Part shown: positions 54,792 to 64,000 of the stretch, piece by piece
Layout: every line of letters begins with the position of its first letter
How positions within the stretch are numbered: position 1 is the stretch's first letter
Notes under the pieces: generated by a model
What the model was told of the DNA's origin: nothing
The model's input: the letters and a program-made list of their open reading frames with translations, nothing else
The model's database searches: none
Origin: Lysobacter sp. Root76
Lineage (GTDB): Bacteria > Pseudomonadota > Gammaproteobacteria > Xanthomonadales > Xanthomonadaceae
Assembly: GCF_001428685.1 (NCBI RefSeq)
Contig: NZ_LMIK01000005.1
Span: 453,224-517,223, forward strand
DNA length: 64,000 nt
Direction of reading: 5' to 3'
Made by a program: the position numbers and the translations under genes

Positions 54792-54832
54792 GGGCCTATA
54801 GCTCAACGGTTAGAGCAGAGGACTCATAATCC
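54792..54832 (+). tRNA. 5' part of a tRNA with anticodon CAU, cut after the anticodon
   Basis: The acceptor 5' strand (GGGCCTA), D-arm (GCTC/GAGC) and anticodon arm (GAGGA, loop CTCATAA with CAT at 54825-54827) are seen. Similar genes of the group continue TCC-TTTGG and then a T-arm and acceptor 3' strand; here the sequence departs after TCC (54832). No T-arm or matching acceptor strand follows. It is either an Ile2 (AUA-reading) or Met gene interrupted by the element. Confidence 0.75.
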
Positions 54833-54983
54833 GTTCGCGGCGAGTTGCCGCAAATTGTCAGCAGTTGTAAAAACCTGCGAAAATAAGCGCTTCTATAGGG
54901 TTTTCTTCATGCGGGGGTAGTGGTGCACGCCCCGTTTTTTCCTGGCATTTCCGGCGCGATTACACCGGATCTACACAGGACAC
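54833..54983. other. Left-junction region of the element
   Basis: A hairpin (GCGGC, loop GAGTT, GCCGC) directly follows the broken tRNA; it is not a T-arm because the loop has five bases and no TTC. The next 130 bases are A+T-rich with runs (TTGTAAAAACC, GGGTTTTC) that may bind integrase or accessory proteins. No gene is seen. Confidence 0.5.
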
Positions 54984-55511
54984 CTATCTGCCAAGCATTG
55001 ACTTCGCTAGATCGAGAAGCCCTTGAACTGTTCGCAGTTGAGGCGGAGAAATATCCGTAAGCCCGGATTCGTCCCGCCCTTTTTCAGATCCTTTATCGCG
55101 CTCCGCAGAAATTCTGATGAGAGCGAATGCCAGGGACATGGGCACAGTCGCCACGACAAGGAGTAGGAGTGAGAAGGCGATCGCCGAGTGCGGCCTGGAG
55201 AGTGCTCCCAGGGTCGCAGAGAGGTCGTCTCCCTCGATCAGCTTGTTTAGAAGCTGGATCAGAATTCCGAAGAAGACGATCGATAGAATTGTGAAATAAA
55301 AGAACGCAGCACGACGCATCATGCGTCGGTCAAGATCGCTTTTGAGCTCTGTCTCTGCTTCCGCCCGCTCTACCAGGGGAAGAGCATCCCTTTGCGCGTG
55401 TGAGGCCGTCGAAGACGAACCTATCGGCTTCTCGCCCGGAAGAATTACTACGTCACCGTCGCCCGTCTTGACTACGGCGTGGCCGGCTTCCGTGCCGTTC
55501 GCTTCGCTCAT
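54984..55511 (-). CDS. Two-helix membrane protein paired with the ImmA-like protease
   Basis: The protein has 175 residues: a soluble acidic head, then two hydrophobic helices at roughly residues 68-85 and 110-130 (FFYFTILSIVFFGILIQLL; AFSLLLLVVATVPMSLAFAL), then a charged tail. No family is recognised. Its ATG overlaps the protease stop (ATGA), so they are co-translated. Base composition is lower in G+C than the chromosome. Confidence 0.65.
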   Translation of the reverse strand: MSEANGTEAGHAVVKTGDGDVVILPGEKPIGSSSTASHAQRDALPLVERAEAETELKSDLDRRMMRRAAFFYFTILSIVFFGILIQLLNKLIEGDDLSATLGALSRPHSAIAFSLLLLVVATVPMSLAFALIRISAERDKGSEKGRDESGLTDISPPQLRTVQGLLDLAKSMLGR

Positions 55512-55969
55512 GCTAAATAGCCGAGGTTCTTCAGTCGGATCTTCATGGCTACTTCTGATACATCGAAGTAACGTGCCAATGTTGCTATATCAGTTTCGCC
55601 TCTGTCGACAACAAGAAGCTGCACGGATCCTGCCGGCATCAGAAGCTCAGCTGCGAAACGATTCGCTTGAGATTCGATGGGATCGAAGTAAAGCGCGCTG
55701 AACTGAGCCGCCGAGTCCCGTGGGCGCTCGCCATGCTGAAAGAAGTGATGCCCCAATTCATGGGCAACAGTAAAGCGTTGCCGAGTGGGGGGCTCGGTCG
55801 GATTAAAATAGATGATCTTTTCTGCTGGCTTATACCAGCCACTAGCGTCAAAGAACGGGTGGATACTCAACCCTTCCTTTTGCGCAATTTCGAAAGGGTC
55901 TATGGGTAGCGTCCGACCTGTCCAATGACGCTGCAGAAGTGCGTTGACAACAGCGCGTTCTTGCAGCAC
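55508..55969 (-). CDS. ImmA/IrrE-family metallopeptidase
   Basis: The protein has 153 residues with the zinc-protease motif HELGH (residues 70-74) and a downstream Glu in ESQANRFAAELLMP as the likely third ligand. ImmA-type proteases cut HTH repressors (ImmR in ICEBs1) to switch on mobile elements or stress responses. It starts at a GTG with AAGGAGG upstream. A target repressor is not adjacent; the Arc-like or AlpA-like proteins at the right end are possible targets. Confidence 0.85.
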   Translation of the reverse strand: MLQERAVVNALLQRHWTGRTLPIDPFEIAQKEGLSIHPFFDASGWYKPAEKIIYFNPTEPPTRQRFTVAHELGHHFFQHGERPRDSAAQFSALYFDPIESQANRFAAELLMPAGSVQLLVVDRGETDIATLARYFDVSEVAMKIRLKNLGYLA

Positions 55970-55991
55970 GGGACACCTCCTTAACCGCGAG

Positions 55992-55997
55992 ATTATA
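55992..55997 (-). promoter_or_regulatory. -10 element for the ImmA-like gene
   Basis: A perfect TATAAT on the minus strand, about 22 bases before the GTG start, with AAGGAGG between. No good -35 is seen, so the call rests on the -10 and position. Confidence 0.5.
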
Positions 55998-56365
55998 ACG
56001 GGGTGGTACCGAAAAGATAGGATGCGTAAGTGTTTGATTAATAAAGGTACAGCTTCGACGTCTCCCAGCCTGCGATCAGTGATCCCTCTTAACTCGGCTT
56101 GTTCAGCCCTTCATCTGCTGGTCCTCTCCAGGCCCCGGCGAGCTGCGATCGCGGGCTGCTGGTCGTAGGTCCATGCCTCCGCATATTGCGATTCTTGTAC
56201 TCCTTGAATTGTGACGACGATCACCTCAGTCTAAGAGGGTCTCCCACTCGGGGGAGCCAAAGGAGTCGCCCTTGAAGCGTTTCTTTTCTCCCCGACCCCG
56301 ATCCATGGCCTGTCGGCCAGGCATTGGGTGTTGACCTAAGGGAGCGTAGAGAGTCAAACGGTGAA

Positions 56366-56413
56366 GCGTGGAGAATCATCACCTCCACGCACCTGCAGGG
56401 CCGACCTGCAGGT
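56366..56413. repeat. Two adjacent inverted repeats
   Basis: First: arms GCGTGGAG (56366-56373) and CTCCACGC (56383-56390). Second: arms ACCTGCAGG (56391-56399) and CCTGCAGGT (56405-56413). Both are perfect and abut each other, 180 bases upstream of the next gene. They could be protein sites or an RNA structure. Confidence 0.65.
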
Positions 56414-56591
56414 AGATCCTGATAGCGTCACCCCATGCCTGGGGCAAGACGATGACGGGCGACAAATCGGTCCGGAGGTCAACAACCTGAGAAACGGAAG
56501 CCCGCGTCTGAGACGTGGACACCTTCCCAGCCTTGGGACTGCGGGGAAAGCCGGGCGACTCTCGAATTTTGAGCGAGACACAGGGGGCACT

Positions 56592-57170
56592 ATGGACGAG
56601 GGATGGGCAGGCCTCATGGGCGCCGTGCTCGGCGGAGCTATCAGTCAAGCCGCGACCTGGGGTGTTGAACTACGGCGAGAGAGTCGAATTGCCCGCAACT
56701 TTGCCGTGGCTGCCTCCAGCGAGCTTGCGGCAAGCATAGGCATGGTCAAAGTCCGAAACTGGCGTGACGCGTTCGTTTCAGCAGCCAACAATGCCTACGC
56801 CGGCAATGTTTACTCGATTAGCGTCCACACCAAGGACGATTACCTGCCCATGTGTCGCGCAGCAATGGCCCATGCAGGCTCAATTGATCACGACTTGGCG
56901 ATTCTACTGGGCAGAATTCTAACGCTAACGGATAGCCTGATCGCAGATATAAAGCGTATTTCAAGCTATACGGTCGATACTCCCGAGAGCCTTCTCTCCA
57001 CGGAGGATCCCGAAGGGGCAGCGCGTGTCTACAACACACTTGTCAATTTGTTGGACGCGGCAATTATCACGGGGGATCAAGCCATACAGAGAGTCGACTT
57101 GATCTATCCGCGGCCGGCGCGAGGACTGGTTACCAGAATGCGCGCGGCCTGGCGTGCGTTTAAAAGCTAG
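56592..57170 (+). CDS. Unknown protein with one N-terminal hydrophobic helix
   Basis: The protein has 192 residues starting MDEGWAGLMGAVLGGAISQA, a glycine-rich membrane-like helix, followed by a mostly helical soluble part (RIARNFAVAASSELAASIGM; SLIADIKRISSYTVDTPESL). No family is recognised. GGGGG precedes the ATG. It converges with, and overlaps by four bases, the Ntn-hydrolase-like gene. Cargo of the element, function unknown. Confidence 0.6.
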   Translation: MDEGWAGLMGAVLGGAISQAATWGVELRRESRIARNFAVAASSELAASIGMVKVRNWRDAFVSAANNAYAGNVYSISVHTKDDYLPMCRAAMAHAGSIDHDLAILLGRILTLTDSLIADIKRISSYTVDTPESLLSTEDPEGAARVYNTLVNLLDAAIITGDQAIQRVDLIYPRPARGLVTRMRAAWRAFKS

Positions 57171-57772
57171 TCCAGGGACCCCACCGTAGCGATTGAGACC
57201 CCCGATCGAGTCAGCTCGGCTATCACCAATCGGCCTCCGATCACGGCGTCCGGCCCAAATGTCTCCCGGGTGTGCCTGACTTGATCGCGCGCGAGTTCCA
57301 CCATGGCCGCGGAATCCTCAGGCGCATCCACGTCTTCCCAGCCGCCATTTGGAGCTAGAAGACTTGGGTTAATTTCCGATATGGCGACAGTGTCAGATAC
57401 AGGGTTCATGCGGTAGAGGAAGGCGGTCATTCGCCCCCTATACGCGGACCAACCTACGACGGCTACTTCAGTCAGCCCTGGATGCAGAACAGCCTTGTCG
57501 GCTATTCCAAGGTAGGTGGTTAGAACCGAATCGACCCGCTTCTGCATCCCAAATAGCAGTGTGTCGAAGTCCTGCACACCGTTGGCGAAGGATGACTGGG
57601 CCAGCACGTTGAAGAGAAGTAGCCTCTCTCCTCGTCCCGCTATGACTGTATTCGCATGCGCTAGGTAGTGGAGCTTGCTCCAATCCGAGGAGCCCCCATC
57701 CTGCAAGCGCCCGGCGGTGTCAGAGGCGATTAATGCGACGTGCCGAGTCAGCTGCACGTTAAGAATGCTCAT
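57167..57772 (-). CDS. Ntn-hydrolase-like (proteasome-type fold) protein
   Basis: The protein has 201 residues. The beginning LTRHVALIASDTAG and HANTVIAGRGERLLLFN resemble the first strands of the proteasome beta-subunit fold seen in some phage proteins. The N-terminal Thr/Ser/Cys nucleophile is not evident (the chain begins MSILNVQ), so peptidase activity is doubtful. AAGGAG lies four bases before the ATG. It overlaps the end of the glycine-zipper gene. Confidence 0.55.
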   Translation of the reverse strand: MSILNVQLTRHVALIASDTAGRLQDGGSSDWSKLHYLAHANTVIAGRGERLLLFNVLAQSSFANGVQDFDTLLFGMQKRVDSVLTTYLGIADKAVLHPGLTEVAVVGWSAYRGRMTAFLYRMNPVSDTVAISEINPSLLAPNGGWEDVDAPEDSAAMVELARDQVRHTRETFGPDAVIGGRLVIAELTRSGVSIATVGSLD

Positions 57773-57956
57773 GGCGCTCCTTATCGGCCCTTGCATCGAG
57801 CTCCGATACTGGCTGGTTTGGGATAGCCCTGCATCCAGCCGGCTCAAGCGATGATCCGATCGCAGGGCCAACCATCCAACCAATTTGCGGCCCGATTGCC
57901 GGGATGAAAGTCCCGACGATAGCTCCGGCCACGCCTCCAATCGTTGAACCTGACAT
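57759..57956 (-). CDS. Glycine-zipper small membrane protein
   Basis: A protein of 65 residues beginning MSGSTIGGVAGAIVGTFIPA with GxxxG-like spacing (a glycine zipper) over a hydrophobic helix, then a charged tail ending KERHEHS. Such proteins occur in phage structural or membrane-inserting modules. AAGGG lies about ten bases before the ATG, and the stop overlaps the start of the Ntn-like gene by 14 bases, supporting a real gene. Confidence 0.55.
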   Translation of the reverse strand: MSGSTIGGVAGAIVGTFIPAIGPQIGWMVGPAIGSSLEPAGCRAIPNQPVSELDARADKERHEHS

Positions 57957-58124
57957 GTAGTTAGCCCTTTAATGGGGCCAGCGCGCGGGCGGGAGCATCG
58001 GGGGATCAGCGATGGGGAGCCTCACCGCCCGCAGGCTGGCATGCGTTGTTTAACCACGATCAACGCCAATCGTCCCGAACGGTCTACGAGCCTCAGCCGG
58101 CCCGCTCAGGTCCTCCCGACTGGG

Positions 58125-59306
58125 TTACGTTGCGGGGCTCAGGTCCACGCGGCGGAAAGCCAGCGCGTCCAGAATGGCCAGGCCGATGCGGGCCTCCACG
58201 AGGATCAGCACCAGGTTGCGCGTGCGGTAGTCCTTGTGGTCGCGGCTGATGAAGACCGTGGGCTGCATCCGGTCGCGGATCTCCACCTTGCCCGTGTCGC
58301 CGACCAGCGCCGTGCCTCGCGGAAGGTCCGGGATCGTGACCACCGGGCGGTTCCACAGCGTGGGCGGCGCCGGCGACGCAGGGTTGCCATACAGGTAGCG
58401 CCCTTCCTCGTCCTTCATGACCGAGATGTCCAGCCAGTCCGCCGGGTTCATCAGGATCACGTTGACCGTGTAGCCGGCTGTCTCCATCGCCGTGATCGCC
58501 TCGCCGATGCGGTCCGGCGTCGGGTTCATCAGGGTCGGGATCGTGGTGGCCGCGGTGTACAGGCCTTCGATGTTCACGCCGGTGCCCGAACCGACGGTCA
58601 GCTGTTGCTCGATCCGGCCGCGGACCTTCTGAGAAAGGATGTTCTGCAGCGTGTTCTGCAGCTGGGTCTCATCGTCGAGGATCTGGGCCGACGCGGTGGT
58701 GTGCACCGCGATCGTGGCTACCTTGTCCTGCATCAGCGTGCCTTCGAAGTCCATTTCGGCCTTCTCGGCGCCCTCTCCGTCCTGCACCTCGGCGTCGCCG
58801 ACGAAGCCCAGGCGGACGTACTCGAACGTGTTGGTGTCCTGGGGCACCGCCGGCAGCAGATCGATCAGACGCACCGGTCGCAGCACGTAGCCGTGATATC
58901 CGGGAATGCGCTGCGGGTTGGCGGGCATGGTGCCGTTGACCGAGTCCGGCGCACCGGGATCGTTGATCAGCGCCTTGATGCCGGCCTTCAGGCGAATGTG
59001 CGGCGATTTGTCGACCGACTTCTCGACGAAGGCCTTAAATCCCTCGTCCTCGGTGATCGTTTGCAGATCGAAGCCGGCCGCGGCCGAGCTATAGCTCAGG
59101 GAAAAGTCGCCGCCGGCGATCTTCTGCTCGACGTCCTGCAGGCGCTGCAGCATCTCGGTCGTCTTGCCGCCGCTCTTCTCGATGAAATCCCGAACCTGGC
59201 CGCTGATGCGGTCCAGCGCGGCCTTCACTTCGATGTCGTATTCGTTACCGTGCCCGTTCTTGCGGCCGTGCTCGATTGCACCAGCCATCGCGGTCTTGCG
59301 AAGCAT
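58125..59306 (-). CDS. HK97-type phage major capsid protein
   Basis: The protein has 393 residues. After a short N-terminal coiled coil (IEVKAALDRISGQVRDFIEK, like a reduced delta/scaffold domain) the HK97 fold follows: PVRLIDLLPAVPQDTNTFEY, MDFEGTLMQDKVATIAVHTT (the beta-region and E-loop), LMNPADWLDISVMKDEEGRYL (P-domain helix), and ...KDYRTRNLVLILVEARIGLAI at the end. It is a normal length, with no frameshift. No prohead protease, portal or terminase is near it. Higher in G+C than the 55-57 kb cargo. Confidence 0.92.
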   Translation of the reverse strand: MLRKTAMAGAIEHGRKNGHGNEYDIEVKAALDRISGQVRDFIEKSGGKTTEMLQRLQDVEQKIAGGDFSLSYSSAAAGFDLQTITEDEGFKAFVEKSVDKSPHIRLKAGIKALINDPGAPDSVNGTMPANPQRIPGYHGYVLRPVRLIDLLPAVPQDTNTFEYVRLGFVGDAEVQDGEGAEKAEMDFEGTLMQDKVATIAVHTTASAQILDDETQLQNTLQNILSQKVRGRIEQQLTVGSGTGVNIEGLYTAATTIPTLMNPTPDRIGEAITAMETAGYTVNVILMNPADWLDISVMKDEEGRYLYGNPASPAPPTLWNRPVVTIPDLPRGTALVGDTGKVEIRDRMQPTVFISRDHKDYRTRNLVLILVEARIGLAILDALAFRRVDLSPAT

Positions 59307-59491
59307 GGAAGTCTCCTGGGGTCGCGGGGACGCTGTGCCCCTAAGCCTTTAGCGGTTGGCTCGCTCGCGGCCTGGATCCCCCAGACGTCGCTTCGAGATG
59401 GTGCGCCCGGCGCCCGGCTCCCGCCGGACTTCCGCTGCCACGCAACCATCGTCCGACCGTTGCACGCGACCGACAACGGGTTTCGTAACAC

Positions 59492-59866
59492 TCAGTGCTG
59501 ATTCGGCACTTCAAGCTTCACGGTGGCCACAGTCTTGCGCGCGCCCTGCGCGTCCAGGCAGGCCAACGTGATGCTCGGCTTCGGCAGGTCGAACAGCACC
59601 GACAGTTCGAACTTCTCGCCGTGGTTGATCGCGAAGGCGACTGCCTGGGCCATTTCCGGATCTCGCGACTGGACGTCCTGGATCATGTCGCTGAGCAGCT
59701 GCTGTGCGCTCAGCACAACGTCTCGGGACTTCTGGGTGATGCTCATGGTTGGGGCTCCTTGGCGGGTTCGGTGTGCCTTTTGGCGACACCCGTTGCTGCA
59801 GTACCGGCGGGGCCGGCCATTGGTCTTTGCCTTGAGCCGCCGGCCGCAAGTGCCGCAAGCGCTCAT
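59492..59866 (-). CDS. Zinc-finger phage-type protein with a second in-frame start
   Basis: The protein has 124 residues from the ATG at 59866 (GGAGG six bases upstream). The first 35 residues form a CxxC...C-x3-C zinc finger (CGTCGRRL, then GRPRRYCSNGCRQKAHRTR), a motif common in mobile elements. The rest is alpha/beta (VVLSAQQLLSDMIQDVQSRD; FELSVLFDLPKPSITLACLD). A second ATG at 59746 in the same frame has its own AAGGAG and would give an 84-residue form without the finger. Confidence 0.7.
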   Translation of the reverse strand: MSACGTCGRRLKAKTNGRPRRYCSNGCRQKAHRTRQGAPTMSITQKSRDVVLSAQQLLSDMIQDVQSRDPEMAQAVAFAINHGEKFELSVLFDLPKPSITLACLDAQGARKTVATVKLEVPNQH

Positions 59867-59980
59867 CTGGTACCTCCAAAAAATCTGAAACTTTCGAATT
59901 GACGGTGTGAATAAACGACTGGGAGGACGGTGTCCGGCGGTTACGGCCGTGAGTTTTGACCCACCTACCCCTATGGGCAC

Positions 59981-60850
59981 TCACGCAGCCTGCCGCGCGC
60001 GCCACTGCTCCTCCTCGTCTTGCCCGTCCACCGCCTTCAGCAGGCGCAGGGAGGGCGGCGCAGGCTCCTGGTGGGCGTCAGGCGCTCTGCGCAGGGCCTC
60101 GTCCTCCGCCGCCTCCTGGCGCTTGCTGGAGCCTGTCAGCACCACACCCGTGCAGGCCTCCCGCAGACGGTCGGCCGTACGCTCGCCGACCCTCAGCAAC
60201 TCCGAGGCAGTGAGGTTGGTCGCGACCAGCATCGGCAGCGCGCGGCTGTAGCGGTAGTCGATTAGCTCGAATAGACGCTCTTGCTCCTTAGGCGTGCCAG
60301 ATCGAATACCGATCTCGTCCAGAGCCAGGAAGTCCACGTTCATCAGCTCGCGGAACAGCAGCTCAGGACTGCCATCGAATGGCGGGCGGCACCGTGCCCA
60401 GGCTTCTGGCCAACTGGCATAGCGCGCCTTGAACCCCGCACCTATCACCGCGCTCACCAAGCCGGCGAGAAGATGGGTCTTGCCCACGCCTGGCGGCCCC
60501 ATGACTAGCAGGCCCTCGCCAGCGTCGTAGCGGCTTCGTATGTCAGCCGCCCATGCGTCGACCAGGCGAAAGGCTTGCTGCTGGTCCTGCGACGGCTTCC
60601 AGTTGCCCAGCGTACGATTGCGATAGCGATATGGCACTTCCGCGGCTTCCCAGCGCCGCCACCGCGACAGATCGATCTCGTAACGCTTCTGTGCCTCCTG
60701 TTTCGCGGCATCTGCGTCGGCCACGCATTGGGTGCAGCGCGCGCGCCGCTTGACGGCGAGCGGCACGATCGTCCTCAAGTCCGCGGCCAACGTGATCGCT
60801 TCTGGGGCCAGGTAGTCGCCATGACGTGGGCAGATGAAGGTCTCGCTCAT
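59981..60850 (-). CDS. DnaC/IstB-like helicase loader ATPase
   Basis: The protein has 289 residues: an N-terminal zinc-binding region (CPRH at 7-10 and CTQC at 39-42), then an AAA+ core with Walker A GPPGVGKT (118-125) and Walker B DFLALDEIG (173-181), and a Sensor-like VATNLT. DnaC-type loaders place the replicative helicase at an origin; lambda P plays the same role with lambda O. It overlaps the initiator gene (ATGA) upstream, supporting the O/P analogy. Confidence 0.88.
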   Translation of the reverse strand: MSETFICPRHGDYLAPEAITLAADLRTIVPLAVKRRARCTQCVADADAAKQEAQKRYEIDLSRWRRWEAAEVPYRYRNRTLGNWKPSQDQQQAFRLVDAWAADIRSRYDAGEGLLVMGPPGVGKTHLLAGLVSAVIGAGFKARYASWPEAWARCRPPFDGSPELLFRELMNVDFLALDEIGIRSGTPKEQERLFELIDYRYSRALPMLVATNLTASELLRVGERTADRLREACTGVVLTGSSKRQEAAEDEALRRAPDAHQEPAPPSLRLLKAVDGQDEEEQWRARQAA

Positions 60851-61683
60851 GGCTTGATCCCTAGGCGCTTCGCGCTCGCAGCGTTGATGGCATCAGCCGC
60901 CTCCTGGGTTTCCCTTGGTAGGCGACCGAAGTCTGCGTCGATCACATTGCCTCCATGGTTGGGAGCCGCGACAGAGGGGTCGTCCTCCCATCGCCGCTGG
61001 TTGAGGTAGGTACTGGGGTGTGGAATGAACTGGGCGTCTGTCCACTGCTGCGGATCTCCACAGCGCGCGCGCACGTCTTGCAGGATCTGATCGGCCAACT
61101 TGTCGAGGGCGTGCCGCTTCCATGCCTTTTCGGCCGTCGCCCTAGCCACCTTGCGTGGGTACTCAGACCAGAACTCACCGAATCGAACAAGAGATTTAGT
61201 GGGTTCTTTAAGTGGGTTGCTTTTAAAAGCGGGTTGGTTACCGGTGGGCCGGTCTACCCCAAAACCGGCCGGCCGGTCTACCTCCGACCGGTGGACCGGT
61301 GTACCCCTGCGCACCGGTGTAGACCGGCTAGCAGGTGTAGGCCGATCCACCGGTGTAGGTCGGTCTGCCGGTATACCTGTATCGCTCGGTGTGCCCTGCC
61401 TGTACCTGTTGGCCTGCGTGCGATCGCCACTAATCCGCACGACGTAGCCGCAGCGCTCCAGCAGATCGATCGCGGATTGCACGCTGCTGCGCGCGCGGCC
61501 CGTATCTTTGGACAATCGCGACAGCGATGGGAATGCCTCGCCGGTGTCCCGGTTGATGCGCTCCAGGATCGTCCAGAGCACCGCGATAGCGGCCGTGGAG
61601 TCTCTGGTCCGTGGATCATTCAGCGCTGCGCCCAGCAAACGCCAGCGATCAAGGAGAAGGCTGGGTTTGCCGTCTTCGCTCAC
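60847..61683 (-). CDS. Winged-helix replication initiator containing an origin-like repeat tract
   Basis: The protein has 278 residues, starting at a GTG. Residues about 30-88 hold a winged-helix domain (STAAIAVLWTILERINRDTG, FPSLSRLSKDTGRARSSVQS). Residues about 90-130 are a low-complexity Pro/Thr tract with a six-residue period (RPTPVD, RPTPAS, RSTPVR). That tract is encoded by six 18-bp iterons. The C-terminal 110 residues are a second domain (FGEFWSEYPRKVARATAEKA) as in phage O-like proteins. The layout mirrors lambda O, whose gene contains the lambda origin. Confidence 0.82.
   Translation of the reverse strand: MSEDGKPSLLLDRWRLLGAALNDPRTRDSTAAIAVLWTILERINRDTGEAFPSLSRLSKDTGRARSSVQSAIDLLERCGYVVRISGDRTQANRYRQGTPSDTGIPADRPTPVDRPTPASRSTPVRRGTPVHRSEVDRPAGFGVDRPTGNQPAFKSNPLKEPTKSLVRFGEFWSEYPRKVARATAEKAWKRHALDKLADQILQDVRARCGDPQQWTDAQFIPHPSTYLNQRRWEDDPSVAAPNHGGNVIDADFGRLPRETQEAADAINAASAKRLGIKP
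61190..61231. other. A+T-rich stretch beside the iterons
   Basis: AGATTTAGTGGG, TTCTTTAAG and GCTTTTAAAAGC lie in a row, 64 bases from the first iteron, inside the initiator gene. This is the expected place for a DNA-unwinding element. Confidence 0.5.
61295..61402 (+). repeat. Six 18-bp iterons, replication-origin candidate
   Basis: Copies begin at 61295, 61313, 61331, 61349, 61367 and 61385, exactly 18 bases apart. The conserved head is ACCGGTGTA (perfect at 61295, 61313 and 61349; GCAGGTGTA, GCCGGTATA and CTCGGTGTG in the others). The rest of each copy varies but is often GACCGG/GGTCGG-like. Equal spacing places them on nearly the same face of the helix, as for iterons bound by an initiator. 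Confidence 0.85.
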
Positions 61684-61955
61684 GCCCGAACCTCGCCTCT
61701 GCGGCGCTTCACAGCCTTGCTCACACGGCCCTGCAGGTTTCCCAGCCCCCGCGCCGTGGAGCTCAGGACGGGGTGCCAGGTGTCAACGACCTGTTTCAAC
61801 TCCGACAGGTCCGTGAGCGGGATGGCGTAAAGCGGATTCGGGTTTGCACGTACGCCGCCGCCGACAGCGCACACGCTTTCGCCGAGTTCCGTCAGTGCGA
61901 TCGGGTCGACAATGTCCAATCGAACAGCCTTGATCCTGGATTCTTCGGTATTCAC
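61680..61955 (-). CDS. Unknown small protein of the element
   Basis: A protein of 91 residues from a GTG at 61955 that overlaps the stop of the gene upstream (GTGA); AGGAG lies nine bases before. It begins NTEESRIKAVRLDIVDPIAL and ends Lys/Arg-rich (GRVSKAVKRRRGEVRA). Its stop overlaps the start of the initiator gene. No family is recognised; location between regulation and replication genes suggests a helper of either. Confidence 0.6.
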   Translation of the reverse strand: MNTEESRIKAVRLDIVDPIALTELGESVCAVGGGVRANPNPLYAIPLTDLSELKQVVDTWHPVLSSTARGLGNLQGRVSKAVKRRRGEVRA

Positions 61956-62260
61956 TGAATGGTCTCCTCGAAGCGCCTGCCGCACTCCAGGGCGTACATG
62001 GCCTGGTCGGTTAGGTGGCGGGCGCCCTGCAGGCAGTACGCAGCCATAACTGCTTGAGAGGTCGGCCTTGAGTCGGCGGTGTCGCTTTCCGACAGCGCGC
62101 GCTCCACAAGCCACTGGATGGCATCGCTCATCAGCAGCAGATCCTGCGGCGTGGCTCGGCTGAGCATGGGGCCGCAGCCTGGCTCCGAACGGCGGATCGG
62201 CGGCATCGCGGCTTCCAGTTCTAACGCCAGCGTCTTGATCTCAGGTCTGGTCAGCGCCAT
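61952..62260 (-). CDS. Unknown small protein of the element
   Basis: A protein of 102 residues beginning MALTRPEIKTLALELEAAMP, helical, with a DLLLMSDAIQWLVERALSES stretch and two cysteines. It lies three bases after the HTH protein and overlaps the next gene. No family is recognised. Confidence 0.6.
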   Translation of the reverse strand: MALTRPEIKTLALELEAAMPPIRRSEPGCGPMLSRATPQDLLLMSDAIQWLVERALSESDTADSRPTSQAVMAAYCLQGARHLTDQAMYALECGRRFEETIQ

Positions 62261-62263
62261 GGC

Positions 62264-62473
62264 TTAGCCCTCCCTACCCATCGGCAGGACGCCGGCATCG
62301 AGTAAGGCAGCCCGCCACCTGTAAGCCGTGGCTCGGCTCATGCCGAATGTGCGCTGCAGCGAATCTACCGTCGGCATCCGGTTCGGATAGGCGCGAACAA
62401 CTCGAAGCGCCAACTCGATGCAGCGGCTGTAGCCAGGTTGTACACGGTAGCTGCTGGTGCCGCGCGCGCTCAT
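62264..62473 (-). CDS. Small helix-turn-helix protein
   Basis: A protein of 69 residues whose second half is an HTH (MPTVDSLQRTFGMSRATAYR, then WRAALLDAGVLP). The ATG at 62473 has GGGAGG five bases upstream and overlaps the stop of the preceding 52-residue gene. It may regulate the replication operon. Confidence 0.68.
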   Translation of the reverse strand: MSARGTSSYRVQPGYSRCIELALRVVRAYPNRMPTVDSLQRTFGMSRATAYRWRAALLDAGVLPMGREG

Positions 62474-62628
62474 TGCTGCCTCCCCGCGGCGCTCGCCCGC
62501 TTGCTCACGATGTCGCACTCCGTGCGCGTGGCCAGCCGGGGCCGCGTCAAGTAGGAGTTTTCTGACACCACGACGGGTTGCTTTCTCACTGCCTGGGATT
62601 TCGGTTCCTGTACACTTTGGGTGGTCAT
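62470..62628 (-). CDS. 52-residue protein of the element
   Basis: A short gene starting MTTQSVQEPKSQAVRKQPVV and ending ...SAAGRQQ. AGGAGA lies about six bases before the ATG at 62628, and the stop overlaps the next start (ATGA), as in the rest of this operon. These features support a real gene, though no family is seen. Confidence 0.55.
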   Translation of the reverse strand: MTTQSVQEPKSQAVRKQPVVVSENSYLTRPRLATRTECDIVSKRASAAGRQQ

Positions 62629-62696
62629 GATCGTTCTCCTAACGAACGGTTGTGGTCTCGCGGGTCGGGCGTCTTCAGCGCTCGGCCCGTTCTCTT

Positions 62697-62930
62697 TTAG
62701 GCAGCATCCTTCCGGCTATCCGCCGTCTCGACGGTTGAGGCGCTGAGATACGCGTCCAGATCCGTGCGCCGATAGAAAACGCGACCGCCGAGCTTCACGT
62801 AGCGTGGGCCTCGCCCTTGGCTTCGCATCTTGTGAAGCGTCTGTTCGCTTAGCCCCAAGTAGGCCGCAGCCGATGCCACCCTCAGCCTTTCGAGAACTTC
62901 CGCCGTCGATTGGTCGTTGCTATGTCCCAT
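62697..62930 (-). CDS. AlpA/Xis-like MerR-type HTH protein
   Basis: A protein of 77 residues with the compact winged-HTH of excisionase/AlpA proteins (LRVASAAAYLGLSEQTLHKM, GRGPRYVKLGGRVFYRRTDLDAYL). AlpA-like proteins activate integrase or excision in satellites and prophages. The ATG at 62930 is preferred, with AGGAG ten bases upstream; a TTG at 62963 would add 11 residues. Possible operators lie just upstream. Confidence 0.82.
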   Translation of the reverse strand: MGHSNDQSTAEVLERLRVASAAAYLGLSEQTLHKMRSQGRGPRYVKLGGRVFYRRTDLDAYLSASTVETADSRKDAA

Positions 62931-62961
62931 CTCAATTCGTCTCCTGATATTCGAGTTTTCC

Positions 62962-63013
62962 AAGCACGGTGCTTTGTATCACGGTGCTTTATAGAAGTGC
63001 AAGCACCGTGCTA
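62962..63013. promoter_or_regulatory. Three AAGCACNGTGCTT-type operator sites
   Basis: AAGCACGGTGCTT (62962-62974), a degenerate copy ATCACGGTGCTTT (62978-62990) and AAGCACCGTGCTA (63001-63013) occupy the short gap between the divergent AlpA-like and Arc-like genes. The two full palindromes are 39 bases apart. They are likely binding sites for one of these regulators. Confidence 0.72.
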
Positions 63014-63026
63014 GTACCATCCGCGT

Positions 63027-63503
63027 ATGGCGCGATCTGATCCTCAAGTTAATTTCCGCATTCCTTTGAATTTGAAGGATATTTTGGAGGCGTCTGCTCG
63101 GAATAGCGGTCGGACCCTGACGGCTGAGATCGTCTGGCGCCTTGAAGCGAGCTTCTCCGCTTCAGGCCAAGATCCCGCGGATCCTGAAATTCAAATGCTG
63201 GATCGTCGGCTTCAGGAACTTGAGGCGCTCCAGGCCCGGTGGAACGGTTTGAATGAAGAGGGCAAGCAACTAGACGTTGCCGAAGAAGAGGCCATGAAAG
63301 AGGCTGACAGGCTGAAACGTGCGCCACAACTTGCCGCTATAAGGGCGCGAATCATCGCGTGCGCCGAATCAGCTTTGCGCCTCGACACCCAGATTCAACG
63401 CGTGCGAGCAGACATTGACGCCTTGACCGACTCCATCAAGGGGCGTGCGCATCAGTTGCATGAGGCGCATCAGTTGCAGGGCGAACGGAAACTCAAGAGA
63501 TGA
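63027..63503 (+). CDS. Arc-like ribbon-helix-helix regulator with coiled coil
   Basis: The protein has 158 residues. The N-terminal 45 are an Arc-type RHH domain (VNFRIPLNLKDILEASARNS then GRTLTAEIVWRLEASF). The rest is a long coiled coil (LDRRLQELEALQARWNGLNE; RLDTQIQRVRADIDAL). It is divergent from the AlpA-like gene and its stop overlaps the integrase start (ATGA), so it may control integrase level by coupling. Confidence 0.78.
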   Translation: MARSDPQVNFRIPLNLKDILEASARNSGRTLTAEIVWRLEASFSASGQDPADPEIQMLDRRLQELEALQARWNGLNEEGKQLDVAEEEAMKEADRLKRAPQLAAIRARIIACAESALRLDTQIQRVRADIDALTDSIKGRAHQLHEAHQLQGERKLKR

Positions 63504-64000
63504 CCGCATTCGTCAAGCTAACAAGGCCCGCCATGCGCGCCCTGAAGGCCGGCGAGTCCATCAGCGAGCACGGCATCACCTTCACCAGGCTGGTCAATGG
63601 CGATGGTCGTTGGTCCATCAACGTAATGGTCAGCAGGGTCAGGCACCACAAGGTTGTCGGCAACGAATCGGAGGGCTACACCCGAACCCAGGCCGAGGAC
63701 GTGATTGCTGGCCTCAAGGCGCAAAAGCGCTCCGCAGGGCATGGGGTGTCCGGCAGCCGTCAGGGAGTGCCTAAGACCGTTCGCGGAGCCGCGGCAGACT
63801 ATCTCGCCTTCCTGCGCTCACACGATGGCAAGGACGTCGACACGAAACAGATGCGGTTCCGGGAGCACCTAACCCCGCATCTTGGTGACAAGAGCGTGTC
63901 TAGGCTCACAGAGGACGACTGGGCGGCTTACGTGGCCGCCCGGAAAGGGGAGGGGGCTGGTCCGGGTACGATCAACCGCGAGCGATCGGCGCTTCTCCAT
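63500..64000 (+). CDS. Tyrosine-type integrase, N-terminal part (3' end outside window)
   Basis: The first 167 residues are in the window. An N-terminal arm-binding type domain (HGITFTRLVNGDGRWSINVM) is followed by a SAM-like core-binding domain (VRGAAADYLAFLRSHDGKDV; HLGDKSVSRLTEDDWAAYVA; GPGTINRERSALL). The catalytic domain with the Tyr lies beyond 64000. It probably inserts the element at the tRNA gene found at the left edge. Confidence 0.85.
   Translation, partial: MTAFVKLTRPAMRALKAGESISEHGITFTRLVNGDGRWSINVMVSRVRHHKVVGNESEGYTRTQAEDVIAGLKAQKRSAGHGVSGSRQGVPKTVRGAAADYLAFLRSHDGKDVDTKQMRFREHLTPHLGDKSVSRLTEDDWAAYVAARKGEGAGPGTINRERSALLH

Follow-up and report, generated by a model that had tools for sequence, protein, structure and literature searches.

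Among described phage satellites, the capsid-forming phage-inducible chromosomal islands (cf-PICIs) come with a full set of head and packaging genes (PMC10690885, in excerpt), and satellite-only capsid clades have been reported for them as well (excerpts of PMC11389934 and PMC13230959). P4 and the Staphylococcus aureus pathogenicity islands (SaPIs) remodel the capsids of their helpers by scaffold-like proteins and, unlike cf-PICIs, form no capsids of their own, and the Streptomyces satellites MulchRoom and MiniFlayer encode their capsids, with small heads of ∼43 nm (both from the same excerpt of PMC10690885). Here we analyze an integrated element at the right end of a 64,000-nucleotide stretch of DNA (the window) from Lysobacter sp. 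Root76 (contig NZ_LMIK01000005.1, positions 453,224 to 517,223), in which an intact gene for an HK97-type major capsid protein (MCP) stands beside integrase, regulator and replication genes. We interpret it as a probable phage satellite, one that provides the capsid protein itself and takes portal, terminase and tail from a helper.

A complete element with an intact capsid gene

The Root76 element is a complete integrative element, bounded by attachment (att) sites, with its own integrase, regulators and replication genes. It spans 9,882 bp, from window position 54792 to 64,717, and thus reaches 717 bp past the window end. Its main features are:

54792..54835, plus strand: attL, the 5' 44 bp of the target tRNA gene; 41 bp are identical to the intact tRNA at 64674-64717 (past the window)
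58125..59306, minus strand: HK97-type MCP, 393 aa, intact (Pfam Phage_capsid, PHROG, NG86, AlphaFold model)
59492..59746, minus strand: g6, 84 aa, directly upstream of the MCP gene; homologues, among the loci compared, only in satellites
59747..59866, minus strand: zinc-finger segment in frame ahead of g6; a gene of its own in L025
59981..60850, minus strand: DnaC-like helicase loader (phrog_50, E 4.1e-47)
60847..61683, minus strand: replication initiator, HTH_36 (phrog_270, E 3.6e-33; PF13730, 4.7e-12)
62697..62963, minus strand: AlpA/excisionase-like HTH_17 regulator (PF12728, 2.1e-12; phrog_66, 2.8e-10)
63027..63503, plus strand: Arc-domain regulator (PF03869, 1.7e-7)
63500..64000, on to 64663, plus strand: tyrosine integrase, 387 aa (PF00589, 2.2e-30), its stop 10 bp before the intact tRNA

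The original prediction had placed these genes between a broken tRNA and an integrase. A query with 4 kb of the left end located a second tRNA-derived stretch 9,882 bp to the right, beyond the window (44 bases, 98% identical), and the intact tRNA copy stands directly after the integrase (L003 12674-12749). The flanking repeat of 41-44 bp is the 5' half of a tRNA gene with a CAU anticodon, tRNA-Met according to ARAGORN, and each of the 8 genomes searched for this gene has a single full-length copy (at least 97% identity). The site is unoccupied in a sister species (G015), where the upstream flank is 91% identical to the left flank of the element; the second tRNA copy and this empty site indicate that the element is complete. 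Reading to the right of 64000, which the prediction had proposed as its test, revealed the other attachment site, ending at 64,717, and our own profiles recognize no phage-type gene in the 6 kb right of the element, so that the prediction withstood it. Integration separates the tRNA (CAU) gene from its native upstream region, and the intact copy begins 10 bp past the integrase stop; since the same 10-bp spacing recurs in L025, L176, L177 and L178, the target tRNA is probably transcribed from the element.

The claim of one complete HK97-type capsid gene is borne out by matches to Pfam Phage_capsid (E 9.7e-33) and the PHROG major head protein (9.8e-46). An AlphaFold model built with 13 family sequences (pLDDT 66.7, pTM 0.54, weakest within the first 141 residues) finds HK97 heads as its best Protein Data Bank (PDB) matches (E 7.3e-22), and the solved cf-PICI capsid EcCI2 appears at rank 42, with 14% identity. 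Comparison with the nearest relative (79% identity) gives dN 0.131 and dS 0.726 by NG86 (dN/dS 0.18), indicating that the MCP is under purifying selection. All 952 phage records that match it do so at less than 60% identity, and the best 25 listed lie at 31-37%. The predicted replication initiator, DnaC-like loader and Arc-like regulator were likewise found, as was the AlpA-like one, for which the Pfam AlpA profile itself scores only E 0.063.

Satellite capsid proteins form clades of their own

A search of related genomes, also proposed with the prediction, did uncover further small elements of this type that hold an intact capsid gene. Among 297 genomes of the host family, 19 hold a relative of the MCP, in 20 places. 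Ten of these places, ours included, show no large terminase subunit (TerL) or portal, and the other 10 are prophages with the order TerL-portal-protease-MCP-connector-tail. An integrase gene lies in the same stretch at 9 of the 10 places without TerL or portal (by Pfam for ours, L024, L028, L029 and L037; by similarity to our integrase for L025, L027, L030 and L032), and at the tenth, L026, the contig breaks off at the MCP.

Across 84,980 species genomes, 41 loci match the MCP; by our own profiles 14 are without TerL and portal and 27 have at least one of them. The 13 best-scoring loci are all without either, and their hosts include Dokdonella, Lysobacter, Stenotrophomonas, Pseudoxanthomonas (two), Bordetella, Pseudomonas (two), Zhongshania, Paracoccus and a Verrucomicrobiaceae metagenome-assembled genome (MAG); 5 of the 13 overlap the 297-genome sample, and three (L128, L131, L135) are seen only in part. 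The absence of a portal is weaker evidence at L128 (contig edge at the MCP), at L030 and L044 (contig ends), and at L131, where the MCP open reading frame (ORF) lacks its N-terminal part and lies beside a gene that looks, by eye, transposase-like. About 35 of 80 MCP loci on viral contigs also gave no TerL or portal match with our profiles; these carry more distant MCPs, mostly on long contigs, and we take their terminases (L043, L044 and L046 aside) to be too divergent for the profiles, so that they support neither side.

A tree of 43 hand-chosen MCP rows (19 satellite, 24 phage or prophage; L135 and L141, with MCPs cut by contig ends, left out) contains two phage-free satellite clades, one of 15 rows including ours (support 100/99) and one of 4 (100/96). 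The satellite and phage labels change only 2 times over this tree, compared with a mean of 14.3 when shuffled. Adding a cf-PICI capsid and the different MCP of G250, both very long branches, left the pattern unchanged, and a joint satellite clade was not rejected (approximately unbiased test, p 0.115).

The closest relative, L043 on an IMG/VR contig (G304), has the MCP that is 79% identical to ours, homologous Rep, DnaC, Arc and g6 proteins, and a tape measure confirmed by PHROGs. The satellite (L043 3540-13342) forms a unit of 9,758 bp between perfect 45-bp repeats (by eye, a tRNA 3' end) and sits between the tail end and the integrase gene of a phage of ∼38.5 kb, which has its own TerL, portal (phrog_145), head-morphogenesis protein, integrase and tape measure, and an unrelated MCP (PF20036, 2.5e-118). 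We infer that such a junction is to be expected only in circular or tandem phage DNA, and the satellite therefore appears inserted in the phage attachment site.

Element length is nearly constant

Seventeen elements were tried for size, and the 12 with a terminal repeat of at least 18 bp were kept. Those not kept were L029 (14-bp repeat), L030 and L024 (no repeat), and L037 and L141 (13-bp repeats, at chance level); the set also excludes L026/L128, L044, L131 and L135. The 12 bounded units measure 8,709-10,597 bp (mean 9,722, SD 490), and their terminal repeats lie mostly in tRNA genes; the 75-bp repeat in Dokdonella we take to be in a signal recognition particle (SRP) RNA gene. The five units with a tape measure average 9,906 bp and the seven without one 9,590 bp (Mann-Whitney p 0.43). 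A tape-measure gene takes up 2-3 kb, and elements without one carry other genes up to about equal length; we read this as a packaging limit. HK97 packages 39.7 kb at triangulation number T = 7; scaled from this value, the capacity would be 11.1 kb at T = 3 and 17.1 kb at T = 4.

No generic virion gene is recognized, and other virion parts vary between elements

When all six frames of the element were scanned with our own profiles, none of those for TerL, portal, protease, tape measure, P27-type small terminase (TerS), connector, stopper, tail completion and tail tube gave a match at E 0.05. The predicted lack of terminase, portal, protease and tail genes thus held for these profiles; the qualification lies in a 65-aa ORF, which may be a trace of a tail gene. 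The 16 bounded elements (the 12 of the size set, L029, and those of G116, G250 and G271) contain neither genes nor pieces, at E 0.05, of TerL, portal, two connector types, tail completion or tail tube, while TerL and portal were recovered in 10 of 10 prophage controls, on which the profiles had been trained. In contrast to these generic parts, scores below 1e-4 are reached by protease in 4 of the 16, by tape measure in 6 and by tail protein I in 2.

An integrase-based search retrieved six loci among the 297 host-family genomes, all with the Int-Arc-AlpA arrangement; five of them share the target tRNA, which follows 10 bp after the integrase stop. Their virion genes differ: ours has the MCP, G227 a same-clade MCP and a tape measure, G250 a different MCP (phrog_617) with protease and small terminase, G116 a tape measure only, and G271 tail assembly protein I only (phrog_32, 4.8e-69). 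The sixth, G235, has no tRNA and no att repeat, and our profiles detect no virion gene in it. Small terminase occurs also in L029 and L044, tail protein I next to the MCP in L129, and maturation protease is kept with the MCP in L124, L125 and L134. Satellite tape measures do not separate from those of phages as the MCPs do: in a tree of 22 rows the two interleave (7 changes, compared with 7.6 when shuffled). In three sister pairs a satellite and a phage share the host genus; their tape measures are 39-46% identical, and are thus not recent transfers. The satellite character that had been predicted is therefore supported, while its capsid-only character does not extend to the family, many members of which also carry tape measure, protease, small terminase or tail protein I: the family is modular, and "capsid only" describes one of its states.

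In the Root76 genome (G000), we found no match to the portal families PF04860 and phrog_145 or the TerL family PF03354, a search confined to these among portal and terminase families, and only a weak match to the TerL family phrog_2 (E 6.7e-4). PF04860 misses other portal types, finding none in G304 although the phage there has a phrog_145 portal, and for this reason phrog_145 and phrog_2 were added to the searches. When 17 satellite-bearing genomes were compared with all four families (phrog_2 at 1e-8), 11, our own included, gave no match; the matches in G001, G114 and the genomes of L125, L126, L131 and L134 all fall outside the satellite stretches retrieved, as judged by contig or position. 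Weak phrog_2 matches in G000 and six other genomes (best 2.6e-6) are taken as helicase-like. Because phrog_2 gives only a weak match in G116, home of the HK97-type prophage L040, no single family settles absence. The helper of the Root76 element is probably external.

Other genes of the element and its right flank

The remaining features are:

54984..55511, minus strand: 175-aa putative membrane protein, cargo; weak homologue in L179 (G235), E 4e-5
55508..55969, minus strand: ImmA/IrrE-type M78 metallopeptidase (PF06114, E 9.6e-22; phrog_87, 2.5e-31)
56592..57170, plus strand: 192-aa protein, cargo, ORF of no known family (no match in Pfam, PHROG, PADLOC or NCBIfam)
57167..57772, minus strand: g4, 201 aa; homologues, among the loci compared, only in satellites L025/L133, L026/L128, L032 and L177
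57759..57956, minus strand: 65-aa glycine-zipper ORF overlapping the g4 start; resembles the N-terminus of a phage tail protein
61680..62114, minus strand: small protein; homologue in L176, E 1.7e-15
61952..62260, minus strand: 102-aa protein, ORF of no known family
62264..62518, minus strand: 84-aa helix-turn-helix (HTH) protein, a weak profile match

The 175-aa protein matched nothing in Pfam, PHROG, PADLOC or NCBIfam, and the remaining element proteins gave no confident family in these four. A defense role for the cargo was considered and set aside: among 10 proteins (4 of ours and 6 from L124, L125 and L129) only the M78 peptidase matches PADLOC, hitting 17 models (best capP, 3.1e-25). The family of g6 matches satellite loci only, including the capsid-less L178, and no prophage locus among those compared; from these matches g6 is a candidate hallmark gene of the satellites.

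The model of g4 is of low confidence (pLDDT 53.7). Its best 50 of 511 Foldseek matches (E up to 10) are all proteasome subunits, the best at E 0.017 and none under 0.001, and g4 has no sequence match in the PDB. An hhalign comparison with E. coli HslV scored 13.3, within the range of 40 shuffled controls (mean 12.3, maximum 20.4). With weak fold likeness and a negative sequence-profile test, assignment to the N-terminal nucleophile (Ntn) hydrolases was rejected and is retained as a lead; going by the model, g4 could be a maturation protease, a possibility on which the HslV sequence test came out negative. Assignment as a terminase was also rejected, as the match to phrog_13702, "terminase large subunit" (E 6e-6), is to a profile of just 218 positions and no match to g4 occurs in 50,697 phage records.

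Right of the element (L003 14942-18775) lie a 964-aa ORF with a hydrolase-like GFSRGG motif (by eye) and a small partner gene, of which there is also a partial second copy; the proteins of this flank have no NCBIfam match above cut-off.

Proposed mechanism and alternative explanations

Integration, gene content, selection on the MCP and the structure of the family are direct results; packaging and helper dependence, a small shell and the use of the helper's portal, protease, terminase and tail are predictions. Upon infection by a helper, or its induction, the element would excise, replicate itself and produce the MCP in quantity. This protein, which has a helical delta-like domain at its N-terminus, would nucleate on the helper portal together with the helper maturation protease, yielding a capsid with room for ∼10 kb, at T = 3 or perhaps T = 4, which the helper terminase would fill and to which the helper tail would then be attached. 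Relatives would swap tape measure, small terminase, protease and tail protein I, perhaps to suit their helpers, leaving TerL, portal, connectors and tail tube, the generic machines, to the helper. We propose more tentatively, at somewhat less than even confidence, that these elements form a separate satellite class, in which a common integrase-regulator-replication backbone carries swappable cassettes of 1-3 specificity-setting virion parts, never generic machines. In that proposal the cassette parts might be capsid, protease, small terminase, tape measure and tail protein I, a list we hold just as tentatively, and the MCP would be an old satellite-only lineage, ranging from Lysobacteraceae to Bordetella, Pseudomonas, Zhongshania and the Verrucomicrobiaceae MAG, that assembles into a dedicated shell of T = 3 (∼10 kb) on the portals of helpers.

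Several observations weigh against a satellite that makes its own shell. No resident helper is indicated, as the Root76 genome has no recognized helper-type portal or terminase, and the phage around L043, whose MCP is unrelated (PF20036) and whose portal belongs to another family, is not necessarily the helper there. Sampling by MCP similarity places an MCP in most members by construction, and in the integrase-based sample this MCP type occurs in only 2 of 6 loci, with a different MCP in one more. Our element and most relatives are without protease, scaffold and portal, and assembly on a foreign portal is an assumption. Finally, the 65-aa ORF matches gene 25 in prophage locus L041 at 54% identity (E 3e-10), and a tail-gene trace, as this similarity suggests it may be, fits loss from a phage.

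That last point bears on the competing explanation named at the outset, an ordinary HK97-type prophage that has lost everything except its capsid gene, and so does the homology of MCP and tape measure to prophage genes in the same host family. Yet att-bounded elements of ∼10 kb recur at unrelated sites in unrelated hosts, the 16 bounded elements yield no pieces of TerL, portal, connector or tail tube at E 0.05, and the MCP clades are satellite-only and the MCP is under purifying selection; with the near-constant size, this makes a reduced prophage improbable. The main rival is that a lone MCP, tape measure or tail protein I acts as a decoy, poisoning helper assembly and protecting the host. 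The swapping of single parts on one backbone fits this, as do tape measures that interleave with those of phages and pair with them within host genera, whereas the MCP is so far from phage MCPs that co-assembly is unlikely, the near-constant element size points to packaging, and L124, L125 and L134 retain a maturation protease with the MCP. We consider interference unlikely, if the least so of the alternatives. Slightly less credible is that the element's own capsid matches the helper's in size and encloses several element copies: some satellites do package several DNA copies without resizing capsids (PMC11389934, in excerpt), and no size-determining protein was identified in the element, but there would then be little reason for a dedicated MCP or a tight size range. 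An encapsulin-like compartment for host or element use is the most remote of these explanations. HK97-fold proteins can self-assemble without a portal; however, the structures closest to the model are HK97-type phage heads, the best 50 of 616 matches include no encapsulin, and the long N-terminal helix, in a low-confidence region of the model, resembles phage delta domains. A satellite with its own shell thus remains our preferred explanation.

Comparison with known satellites

The Root76 element shows two features by which phage satellites are generally recognized: it integrates and encodes integrase, regulator and replication proteins of its own, and it is without particle-essential genes. 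It is not an ordinary prophage, having no head, packaging or tail modules and the 65-aa tail-like ORF as the sole possible remnant. The HK97-type prophages of the host family (L031, L033-L036, L038-L042) do have homologous MCPs, and tape measures of the same family as those in related satellites; they differ in their TerL-portal-protease-MCP-connector-tail modules, and their MCPs fall outside both satellite clades. Classical PICIs and P4-like satellites share with the element an integrase, an AlpA-like regulator, their own replication and, at near 10 kb, its size, but they have no capsid gene of their own, where the Root76 element supplies an intact MCP. No family match in the Root76 element suggests a capsid-redirecting scaffold-like or TerS-modifying protein, for which no search by name was made. 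MulchRoom and MiniFlayer encode TerS, TerL, portal, MCP, scaffold and adapter without primase-like replication genes, the reverse of the Root76 element. In the open-license full-text literature we recognized, among the matches listed, no description of a satellite with the MCP only or bearing a tape measure, and no MCP-alone satellite is described in the excerpts of PMC11389934, PMC13230959 and PMC10803314.

The cf-PICIs are the closest known kind, being integrated, with their own integrase, regulators, replication genes and HK97-fold capsid gene. The cf-PICI compared was NZ_CP008957 1680329-1694760, which we take to be EcCIEDL933. This presumed EcCIEDL933 measures ∼14.4 kb from integrase to last gene, compared with ∼10 kb for Root76-type elements, and carries MCP, protease, portal, head closure, connector, HNH, TerS and TerL, where ours carries the MCP alone. 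Assignment of the Root76 element to the cf-PICIs was rejected on three counts: the capsid set of MCP, protease, portal and head-tail connectors is reduced to the MCP in our unit; packaging genes (TerS, TerL, HNH) are not recognized in it, PF03354 being absent from the genome; and no row of the tree exceeds 20% identity to the single cf-PICI MCP examined. The cf-PICIs supply head and packaging genes in full and take nothing but tails. An element contributing the shell alone has to mount it on a foreign portal, with foreign protease and terminase, and would thus show how far HK97-type head parts are interchangeable. The family predicts ∼10-kb DNA in small heads, with satellite MCP on helper portals and, if this is true, offers a natural handle on what sets capsid size.

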